DNA of 64,000 bases from contig CP136064.1 of NCBI GenBank assembly GCA_032622095.1, positions 214,782,205 through 214,846,204 of the forward strand. Direction: 5' to 3'. A program made the translations under genes and the position numbers. This stretch comes from Siphonodentalium dalli (lineage: Eukaryota; Mollusca; Scaphopoda; Gadilida; Siphonodentaliidae). The notes beneath the pieces are model-generated. The model had not been told where the DNA came from. It did not search any database and saw nothing but the letters and a program-made list of their open reading frames with translations. Position 1 is the first letter of the stretch; each line of letters begins with the position of its first letter. Positions 24,618 to 31,306 of the stretch are shown here, piece after piece.

Positions 24618-25488
24618 TTAAAGCCCACTTAAAGGCCCACTTAATTTTCGAACCCCCAGATTACTTTATATAAAATATATGCCATTATTATATACCATTT
24701 GAAATATTGTTTTTGTTGAGTTGCCAACGCGTTTTGTCATCTAGATTGCAGTAAAAAGCAGTATTATTTTCAATGCAGGGGGAATAACTCTATATATTAC
24801 AGATAGAGTTCTTCCTCTTCCATTGAAAAAGTTTGAATTCTGTTGCATTCTGGGTTCCAAAAGGGGGGAAGTCGTTCTATGATTTCAGCAGTTTTCTATT
24901 TCTCTATGGGCATCTTCTGAGACACAGATATTTCAAATAGTGATGAATAATAGTATTTTAATCATATTTTATGGCATAGATTGTTATTAAAACCGTATAT
25001 CAAGTCACTATAAAAAAAATAATCGGCGACTCGAAAATTAAGTGGACCTTTAATTTCCGAATCACCAGATCACATTATATACAACATATTCCATATTATA
25101 TAGCATTTGAAAGAGGAAGCTCCAAAACATTGTATTATCAACTGATCCAGTCGAATAAACTGGGAACATGTTTTTGTCGAGGTACTGATGTGTGTTCTGT
25201 GCTTAATTTTGATCCGGACTGCACTGTAAAGTCTATTCTCAAATGGAAGGGGAATAACTCTATATTTTAGTTTGAATTCTGATGCATTCTGGGTTGACAA
25301 TGGGGGCTCTTGGAATAAATCTGAGAATCTCTATCACTTGGTGGACACTCCTAAACCACAGCTGTTCTGTATTCTGGTGGAATATATGAGCATATATATA
25401 GACTTTTGGTTTCTCTTCCAAATGGTATATAATATGGAATGTGTTATGTGTATAATGTTATATGGGCATTCGAAAATTAAGTGGGCCT
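24618..25488. mobile_element. K1 MITE, copy 4, interrupted by copy 3
   Basis: Left tip at 24622-24628 (AGCCCAC), body resumed at 25050-25488 with a normal right end and TTAA at 25489-25492. The break is exactly the TTAA that lies inside the family's own TIR. Confidence 0.75.
24633..25049. mobile_element. K1 MITE, copy 3, inserted inside another K1
   Basis: 417 bp, TTAA at 24629-24632 and 25050-25053. It is preceded by TTAAAGCCCAC (24618-24628) and followed by TTTCCGAATCACCAG: these are the tip and the remainder of copy 4. Confidence 0.8.
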
Positions 25489-25643
25489 TTAATATCAATA
25501 AAAATGACCTTGTGTTATGAACCATTGACTTGCATTTCTAAACTTGTAATTTACACGTATAGAAATTGTGTAGTAGTGACTCCTGGTAAACCGGGCAAAC
25601 ACCGCAACATTGACAACTTCGGGAAAAATAACGGCAATTTTTC

Positions 25644-26569
25644 TTAAAGGTCCATGCATTTAAAGGTACTCAATCTGATCAGACGGTCCCCATATCATCA
25701 AGTTACAACAACAACAACAACATTTCTTCAAAATACGCTTTTGTTATCAGAATCGATTAATTTCAACAAAATAATGCTAACCGCTGTCAACTATAAGGTA
25801 TAAAATTTCCCAAAACGTGTTATTTATCAACATCTTGTTCAACGAAATTTGGCAGTATTATCACTTGAGTGTCACGAAATTTGGCCGTATTACCACTTGA
25901 TTTTAGAGTTATCCATCTTCATCCGTAATTTTGTCCGAAACCGTCGATTTGACAACTCTTTTCTGGGCCACAAATAATAACACATTTCGAGAAATAACAA
26001 ATTTCAAAAATCGATATCTGAACACTCTGAGCTTTGATGGGTGGGTTCCTCGACTCGAATCGAATATTTTTTACCCCCGAAGTCAAAGAAATAGTAATTT
26101 GGGAGCGTTATATCGGATTATGCATCTTTAATTTTCGAGTCACGGATTATATTTTATATTGCCTGATATACGGTTTTAATAGAAAAATATGACATAAAAT
26201 ATGATTAAAATACTATAATTCATCACCATTTGGAACATCGGTGTCTCAGAATGTGTCCATATAGAGTAATAGAAAATAACTCAAATCATAGAAACTGTTC
26301 CCCCGTTTCGCTCCAGGAATGCAACAAATTTCAAACTAAGATATCGAGTTATTCCTCTTCCGTTGAAAGTAATAGACTTTGCAGAACGTCCAGAAGAAAC
26401 TTAAGCACATAACACACGTCGGTACCTCAACAATAACAACATGTTCCCAGTTTATTACACCGAATAAGTTGATAACACAATGTTTTGGAGCTTCCTCTCT
26501 CAAATGGTATATAATATGGCATATATTTAATAAGATGTTATCTGGGGGTTCAAAAATTAAGTGGGCCTT
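25644..26569. mobile_element. K1 MITE, copy 5, interrupted by a K2
   Basis: The body begins at TTAATTTTCGAG (26128) and ends 26569 with TTAA at 26570-26573. A diverged tip TTAAAGGTCCATGCAT lies at 25644, left of the intervening K2 element. Confidence 0.6.
25664..26127. mobile_element. K2 MITE, inserted in a K1
   Basis: 464 bp. Left AGGTACTCAATCTGATCAGA after TTAA (25660-25663); right end TATGCATCT before TTAA (26128-26131). Includes CAACAACAACAAC and the ACTCGAATCGAATATTTTTT block common to the family. Confidence 0.8.
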
Positions 26570-26589
26570 TAACAGAATCGCTTCACTCT

Positions 26590-28069: not shown

Positions 28070-28270
28070 CGTTGAACTTATACTTAGAGAACCTCACATG
28101 TGAATGAGGCCATGCATGCATATAAACATCACGATGTGTTACCAACAGATGCGTGAACGCGTGCTTCGCTATCAGGGTTCTGAGTAACGCACTATAACAT
28201 GATATATGCGAGAAATTTTAGTCCGAGCTGCAGCTGATGCACCGTGAGGGAAGGCATTGTTCCGGGATAA

Positions 28271-29018
28271 TACCACGATATGATCAGAAATCACAGCCAT
28301 ATGCTCCAATGATAGCGATTTCATACACTGTATTACGCACATAAAATAATCATAACTGACAAACGATAACAATATACTTCATGAATCCAAAATTATGCCT
28401 TTTGATCAGCTCTATATTATAATATGACGGAATTTCTTTTTATTTCTAATGAAAATACAAAAACATGTTCTTTTTTATGCATGTTTAGTCCACAGCATGA
28501 TTGACAGTAATTGTGTGTGTCCTCGCATGCAAATATATCACCTGACTTTCAACAATAAGAACGTACATTTATAAGTTATAACTGAACATGCCTTGTGTTT
28601 GCGAGACACAATTCTACTAGATCCAAGCGTAATATATATATATAATACCACGATATGATCAGAAATCACAGACATATGCTCCAATGATAGCGATTTCATA
28701 CACTGTATTACGCACATAAAATAATAATAACTGACAAACGATAACAATATACTTCATGAATCCAAAATTATGCCTTTTGATCAGCTCTATTATAATATGA
28801 CGGAATTTCTTTTTATTTCTAATGAAAATACAAAAACATGTTCTTTTTTATGCATGTTTAGTCCACAGCATGATTGACAGTAATTGTGTGTGTCCTCGCA
28901 TGCAAATATATCACCTGACTTTCAACAATAAGAACGTACATTTATAAGTTATAACTGAACATGCCTTGTGTTTGCGAGACACAATTCTACTAGATCCAAG
29001 CGTAATATATATATATAA
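28271..29018 (+). repeat. Recent 375-bp tandem duplication
   Basis: Units 28271-28645 and 28646-29018 are nearly identical, from TACCACGATATGATCAGAAA to a TATATATATATAA end. Only scattered substitutions and a short TAT indel are visible (for example CATAGCC/CATAGAC type changes). Confidence 0.9.
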
Positions 29019-30314: not shown

Positions 30315-30711
30315 TTAATTTTAGAATCACCAGATAACATTATGCATATTCCATCATATTCCATATTATATACCATTTGAAAGAGGAAGCTCCAAACCAT
30401 TGTATTATCAACTGATCCGGTCGAATAAACTGGGAACATGTTGTTTTTGTCGAAGTACCGATGTGTGGTATGTGCTTAATTTCATCCGGACTGTACTGTA
30501 AAGTATATTATTCTCAATGGAAGGGGAATAACTCCATCTCTTAGTTTGAATTCTGATGCATGCATTCCGGGTTGACAACGGGGGAGTCTAGGACACAACC
30601 GTTCCGTATTCTGGTGGAATATATATATATTTGGCTTCTCTTCCAAATGGTATATAATGTGGAATATGTTGTGTATAACGTTATCTGGAAATTCTAAAAT
30701 TAAGTGGGTCT
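30315..30711. mobile_element. K1 MITE, copy 7, left tip missing
   Basis: Starts at the internal TTAATTTTAGAATC directly against the K2 right end. Right end GTGGGTCT with TTAA at 30712-30715. Confidence 0.7.
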
Positions 30712-31253
30712 TTAATGGGGTGTCAGGTTTGAATTTTCCAGAAGTTGGAAAGGTTGAGATACCACATGCAGTTGGAACCAATGAACATGGAAATTTAGTT
30801 TGGTCTGGATCGATCATTTAGCCCCCAACGGAGACCCATATAGCCACGTCCCTGGTCACCGTTGACGACACTGGGGGCTCGATTTATTGTAAGATTGCAA
30901 AGGAGCCCAAAATCGCAATAAATGGGATGCGTTTATAGATACTGGAACTTCATCAGGACACGCTCATCCCTGATATTTCATAGTTTCATACATATATATA
31001 TATGCGACAAACACAGGACGAGCAAAAATGACGTTGCGTGTGGACATTTTCTGCAAAATCCCCGGTAAACCAGTTCCAAGCTCATGTAGTATAGAGTTAT
31101 ACCTCTTACATTTGATTGGATTTCTTCCTCAACCGTGTAATTACAGAGGTCGGAAGGTAGATTTGGCTTTCATCTGGTATTATGGATACGAAATTTCAAT
31201 ATGTTATAATTATCAATAATTCTAAACTTACCAGCTATGATGAAGAGTTGGTT

Positions 31254-31306
31254 GTGGAATATGTTGTGTATAACGTTATCTGGAAATTCTAAAATTACGT
31301 GGGTCT
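31254..31306. mobile_element. K1 MITE, copy 8, right end only
   Basis: The last 50 bp of the element including GTGGGTCT and TTAA, carried along by the direct duplication at 30660-31990. Confidence 0.65.

Follow-up and report, generated by a model that had tools for sequence, protein, structure and literature searches.

A K1 element lies inside the terminal repeat of another K1

The window analyzed here is the whole stretch of 64,000 nucleotides, which belongs to a genome of 2.23 Gb in nine contigs, a size that marks it as eukaryotic. Between positions 24618 and 25492, it holds two copies of a repeat termed K1, one of which (copy 3, 24633–25049) is inserted at a TTAA that lies 8 bp in from the left end of the other (copy 4). 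The parts of the locus are listed below, with no strand assigned.

24618–24621: TTAA, left target-site duplication of the host K1 (copy 4)
24622–24628: AGCCCAC, remnant of the left 8-bp terminus of the host K1, one base missing
24629–24632: TTAA, left duplication of the inserted K1, which is also the inner TTAA of the host
24633–25049: inserted K1 (copy 3), 417 bp, AGGCCCACTTAATTTTCG...CTCGAAAATTAAGTGGACCT
25050–25053: TTAA, right duplication of the inserted K1
25054–25488: body and right end of the host K1 (copy 4), from TTTCCGAATCACC to ...AAGTGGGCCT
25489–25492: TTAA, right duplication of the host K1 (copy 4)

The left 18-bp end of copy 3 is exact, and the right one carries a single mismatch. 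With the insert removed, the left end of copy 4 reads AGCCCAC-TTAA-TTTCCGAATCACC, to be compared with AGGCCCAC-TTAA-TTTTCGAATGCC at its right end. The sequence-only reading had placed a TTAA 8 bp from the end of K1 and had copy 3 occupying exactly that site in copy 4, and it was correct on both points: the first 8 bp of the 18-bp terminal repeat are followed by a TTAA, TTAA stands on both sides of the insert, and the outer TTAAs of the host are kept. These data confirmed that the nested K1-in-K1 structure is real.

K1 and K2 are abundant, short, and non-coding

The 18-bp ends of K1 read AGGCCCACTTAATTTTCG and those of a second family, K2, read AGGTACTCAATCCGATC, giving termini of the form AGGCCC...GGGCCT and AGGTAC...GTACCT, respectively. 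K1 measures 417–445 bp in five window copies and 403–506 bp in 12 genome copies. The latter are the two-ended copies among 55 loci (L006–L060); at the other loci, a second end was lacking, had diverged, or fell beyond the stretch, and the flanks of loci L061–L068 were left out of the reading. TTAA was found on both sides in 10 of the 12 two-ended genome copies and, in the window, in three of five K1 copies and both K2 copies checked. Exact K1 ends number 9,695 genome-wide, and we estimate ~13,900 K1 ends and ~53,100 K2 ends in total, with roughly 13,500 recognizable K1 termini that carry the inner TTAA. No long open frame was found in seven window copies of K1 and K2, the longest open stretch in each being 47–127 amino acids. 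Both families are short, non-coding, high in copy number, and bounded by terminal inverted repeats, as MITEs are. At C1:10357300–10357640, a 34-bp unit containing a K2 terminus is tandemly repeated, apparently as a satellite seeded by a K2 end.

The Kolobok superfamily is characterized, in the available excerpts of PMC9587614 and PMC6004289, by a TTAA target-site duplication and 5'-RR...YY-3' termini, and K1 and K2 share the TTAA duplication and have AG...CT termini. They differ in being short and non-coding. Within the excerpts of PMC6004289, the T2-MITE of Xenopus is a non-autonomous, high-copy element with a TTAA target and an AGG terminus, all of which recalls K1 and K2; its AGGRR motif, however, is matched by neither K1 (AGGCC) nor K2 (AGGTA). 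The solo LTDRs of KolobokP, as presented in the excerpts of PMC9587614, are ~450 or 660 bp long with inverted repeats of 11–18 bp, and solo copies are common. K1, at 403–506 bp (12 copies) with 18-bp ends, resembles them in size and repeat length, but it duplicates TTAA, whereas the same excerpts give solo-LTDR duplications of 3–4 or 4–5 bp and include in the definition of KolobokP LTDR-INT-LTDR copies encoding a transposase and a His-Me nuclease. The piggyBac elements, which also duplicate TTAA, were set aside: K1 and K2 begin with AG, the Kolobok 5'-RR type, a distinction taken from the excerpts of PMC9587614.

Two further K1 termini in the window adjoin K2

Two other K1 copies, at 26128 and 30315, had been described as starting at the inner TTAA against a K2 element. 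Their features are as follows, with a strand given where one is assigned.

25644–25663: TTAA (25644–25647), AGGTCCATGCAT (25648–25659), TTAA (25660–25663)
25664–26127, plus strand: K2, 464 bp, nested at the inner TTAA of the 26128 K1
26128–26572: K1 host of this K2, from the inner TTAA to the right end (26568) and the outer TTAA (26569–26572)
30315–30715: K1, from the inner TTAA to the right end (30711) and the outer TTAA, with a K2 right end before it

The description fits the 26128 case fully, which is a complete K2 nested at the inner TTAA of another K1 (25644–26572). The TTAA at 25644–25647 is the outer duplication of this second host, and the inserted K2 is flanked by its own duplications at 25660–25663 on the left and 26128–26131 on the right. 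The intervening AGGTCCATGCAT, 12 bp where 8 are usual, is probably a diverged remnant of the left end of the second host. At 30315, the description has the support of a single verifiable junction, in which a K2 right end is followed by the TTAA at 30315–30318 and then by K1 inner sequence. The K2 upstream is rearranged, and the sequence just upstream contained neither a K2 left end, with up to five mismatches allowed, nor a host remnant. With the K1-in-K1 locus, three cases fall inside ~6 kb of one window, a locally dense arrangement.

Insertion at the inner TTAA recurs throughout the genome

Genome-wide, we found 22 exact-junction insertions at the inner TTAA of K1, comprising five K1 and 17 K2 elements. 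The K1 junction GTGGGCCTTTAATTTTCG gave five exact matches, all of which continue as K1 inner sequence. A remnant of the host was present on the far side in three of them (L003, L004, and L005), absent in L002, and ambiguous in L001. The K2 junction GAGTACCTTTAATTTTCG gave 21 exact matches, all of which were read: the host was K1 in 17 and something other than K1 in four (L076, L078, L126, and L133). A host remnant lay beyond the K2 in 9 of the 12 cases read with long flanks. Two pairs among the 17 (L077/L130 and L080/L132) are 99–100% identical over 78 bases and probably represent duplicated copies, one event per pair, leaving ~20 of the 22 junctions independent. These counts rely on exact patterns, which overlook junctions that have diverged, among them all three in the window; when the K1 inner junction was relaxed to TTTTNRA, 12 matches were obtained, nine of them K1 by their printed letters.

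The left end of L005 (C7:121425900–121428400) is stacked, reading TTAA-AGGCTG-TTAA-AGACCCAC-TTAA-AGGCCCAC, and may stem from two or more nested insertions into a single terminus.

No excess at the inner TTAA over the other K1 TTAAs compared

As the sole internal comparator, we used one other TTAA within K1, TTAATAACAA, hereafter site a; further internal TTAAs lie in GATTAAAATACT and GTGCTTAATTTTGATC. Site a gave 45 exact K2 junctions, 14 of them in K1, and 10 exact K1 junctions, four of them in K1. Expressed per 18-mer site, this amounts to 18 insertions per 5,327 at site a and 22 per 9,695 at the inner TTAA, a rate ratio (inner to site a) of 0.67 (95% CI 0.34–1.33, one-sided p = 0.92). The statistics treat the two duplicated K2 pairs as separate events, and collapsing them would push the ratio lower still. 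The upstream 8 bases of the site-a denominator were present in 23 of 29 occurrences of TTAATAACAA (L006–L060), and the corresponding figure for the inner site was 61 of 66, in loci chosen for that site; the two denominators are therefore similarly strict, not equal.

The outer TTAA, like the inner one, occurs once per K1 end. Eight K1–K1 events with an exact AGGCCC were found there (six palindrome pairs and two single matches), together with one that is likely diverged and two with AGGTCC, compared with five K1 insertions at the inner site. Junctions between K1 and K2 at the outer TTAA numbered 51, with K2-into-K1 and K1-into-K2 mixed and six of the 51 read with flanks, compared with 17 K2 insertions at the inner site. 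They were counted separately because the first outer search lost matches with A as the 18th letter after the junction TTAA. Because either partner can reveal an outer junction, the outer count is somewhat favored. The outer TTAAs of K1 are also repeatedly adjoined by a third family, whose ends resemble AGGCACGGGCGGCGTTCG (e.g. at C7:13343891), and several TTAAAGG-ended families therefore share outer TTAAs in this genome.

We also compared the counts with a model in which every TTAA is used uniformly, extrapolating the 519 TTAAs per 64 kb of this one window to the genome and taking the end numbers estimated above (~13,900 K1 and ~53,100 K2). The model predicts 18.0 insertions at the 9,695 exact sites and 25.1 at the ~13,536 K1-derived sites of the 10-mer TTAATTTTCG, and 22 were observed. 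By family, 17 K2 insertions stand against 14.2–19.9 expected and five K1 insertions against 3.7–5.2. Within K1, site a received 18 insertions against 9.8 expected, an excess that fits tolerance of the element interior and not targeting of the terminus. Segmental copies inflate the counts on both sides of each of these comparisons; 72 of the 100 listed K1 flanks are distinct.

Within sampling error, then, the inner TTAA is used at a rate no higher than that of site a, the outer TTAA, or an average genomic TTAA, and preferential targeting of the K1 terminus is not supported. The sequence-only reading had suggested that self-targeting of the terminus is recurrent. Recurrence stands, in the form of the five K1 and 17 K2 insertions, but a preference is not supported: the inner TTAA is hit no more often than site a, and the outer TTAA is used as often or more.

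The core of the inner site is used less outside K1

One comparison points the other way. The 10-mer TTAATTTTCG occurs 28,899 times in the genome, with the exact outer 8 bp present on 9,695. Its ~15,363 non-K1 sites hold four K2 and no K1 insertions, against 17 K2 and five K1 insertions at the ~13,536 K1-derived sites, so that usage is ~6-fold higher in K1 (odds ratio 6.3, p = 1e-4), both site numbers being rough estimates. Of the occurrences listed, 34 were already exact K1 ends by hand count; the K1-derived share was estimated from the first 40 others, of which eight were judged to be K1. These 40 come from the beginning of a single contig, and many are copies of a few other repeats, which makes the control outside K1 weak. 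In a related tally, TTT after TTAA was likewise scarce, occurring in 2 of 72 distinct listed K1 flanks and 1 of 82 K2 flanks, against a window background of 40 of 950 sides, numbers too small for a test. It drew on every one of the 100 K1 flanks listed and on 93 of the 100 K2 flanks, after exclusion of the seven that fall in the tandem array at C1:10357300–10357640.

The inner site of K1 may therefore be a better target than its core sequence would suggest. We consider it unlikely that the wider context of the K1 terminus, or a bound transposase, offsets a poor core TTAA-TTTTCG and mildly draws two TTAA families; should the slight enrichment over the core sequence alone hold, terminus-directed insertion by TTAA elements could be put to the test. 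Better tolerance of insertions into repeats could also account for the TTAATTTTCG difference, in line with the safe-haven idea cited in the available excerpts of PMC3695323.

Insertion at ordinary TTAA sites is the probable explanation of the nesting

Both junctions of the nested elements, both sets of TTAA duplications, and the recurrence of such insertions are direct observations. They are very probably explained by TTAA-duplicating, Kolobok-like MITEs whose targets are ordinary TTAA sites, including the one that happens to lie within the inverted repeat of K1. K1 and K2 are high-copy, non-coding MITEs with Kolobok-like 5'-AGG ends that insert at TTAA across the genome and would be mobilized by a Kolobok-type transposase. 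The TTAA that follows the first 8 bp of the 18-bp repeat places K1 termini in the ordinary target pool, and the insertions of copy 3 and of the 464-bp K2 at 25664 are two hits on it. Each insertion at the inner TTAA would split the outer 8 bp of the host from the rest of its repeat, probably disabling that end.

Self-targeting, in which a terminus-bound transposase or a favored motif steers new elements to the TTAA that the terminal repeat contains, would accommodate the 22 exact junctions (~20 of them independent), the three cases in the window, and the ~6-fold greater use than at the same 10-mer elsewhere. In bacteria, IS4321 and IS5075 insert site-specifically inside the terminal inverted repeat of Tn21-family transposons, and K1 and K2 likewise insert inside the terminal inverted repeat of another transposon; for K1 and K2, however, no specificity was found. 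The site shows no excess over site a within the confidence interval of the 0.67 ratio, the outer TTAA is used equally or more, the total equals the uniform-TTAA expectation, and K2, despite its different terminus, is found there as often relative to expectation as K1, all of which makes self-targeting decidedly improbable. An alternative is that the true end of K1 is the inner TTAA-TTTTCG, with AGGCCCAC added outside, and that two elements abut rather than nest. The K1 copies at 26128 and 30315, which start at the inner TTAA, and L002, which lacks a remnant past the insert, could be read in this way. Yet the exact outer 8 bp are found on 9,695 of the 28,899 TTAATTTTCG occurrences, with a near match on five of the eight further K1-derived ones read; TTAA flanks lie outside AGGCCCAC in 10 of 12 K1 copies; and, beyond the insert, remnants of the outer 8 bp appear in nine of the 12 K2 cases with long flanks and in three of five K1 cases. 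On these three grounds we rule out this placement of the end, to which we give next to no credence.

Slippage or unequal crossover could instead have built arrays of terminal units with no transposition, a process for which the 34-bp tandem array of the K2 end and the stacked left end of L005 offer some precedent. It is ruled out at 24618–25492, where the two parts of the host are separated by a whole second element of 417 bp that has both of its ends and a TTAA duplication on each side, and K2 inserts in K1 hosts are not explained by slippage within K1; we regard it as highly improbable overall. Insertion at ordinary TTAA sites thus remains the preferred account. It means that a very abundant element enters its own target pool, and with ~10,000 exact TTAA-bearing ends, nesting is expected by numbers. 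A few striking junctions should accordingly not be equated with targeting.

Among the literature matches listed, none concerned a MITE that receives insertions at a TTAA inside its own terminal repeat; their coverage is partial and does not imply absence. MITE-in-MITE nesting itself is known: rice, maize, and carrot DcSto Stowaway MITEs nest in the same or other MITE families, according to the available excerpts of PMC3695323, which cite Jiang and Wessler 2001. The arrangement resembles that of K1 and K2 in that a MITE lies in a MITE of the same or another family, but the plant elements belong to other superfamilies with other target sites, and those excerpts mention no target in a terminal repeat.

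Local duplications in the window

Two duplications were also seen in the window. The K1 right end and flank at 30692–30711 are repeated ~600 bp downstream, at 31287–31306, as a local duplication. Positions 28267–28640 and 28642–29013 form a near-adjacent direct duplication with 98.9% identity over 374 aligned bases.
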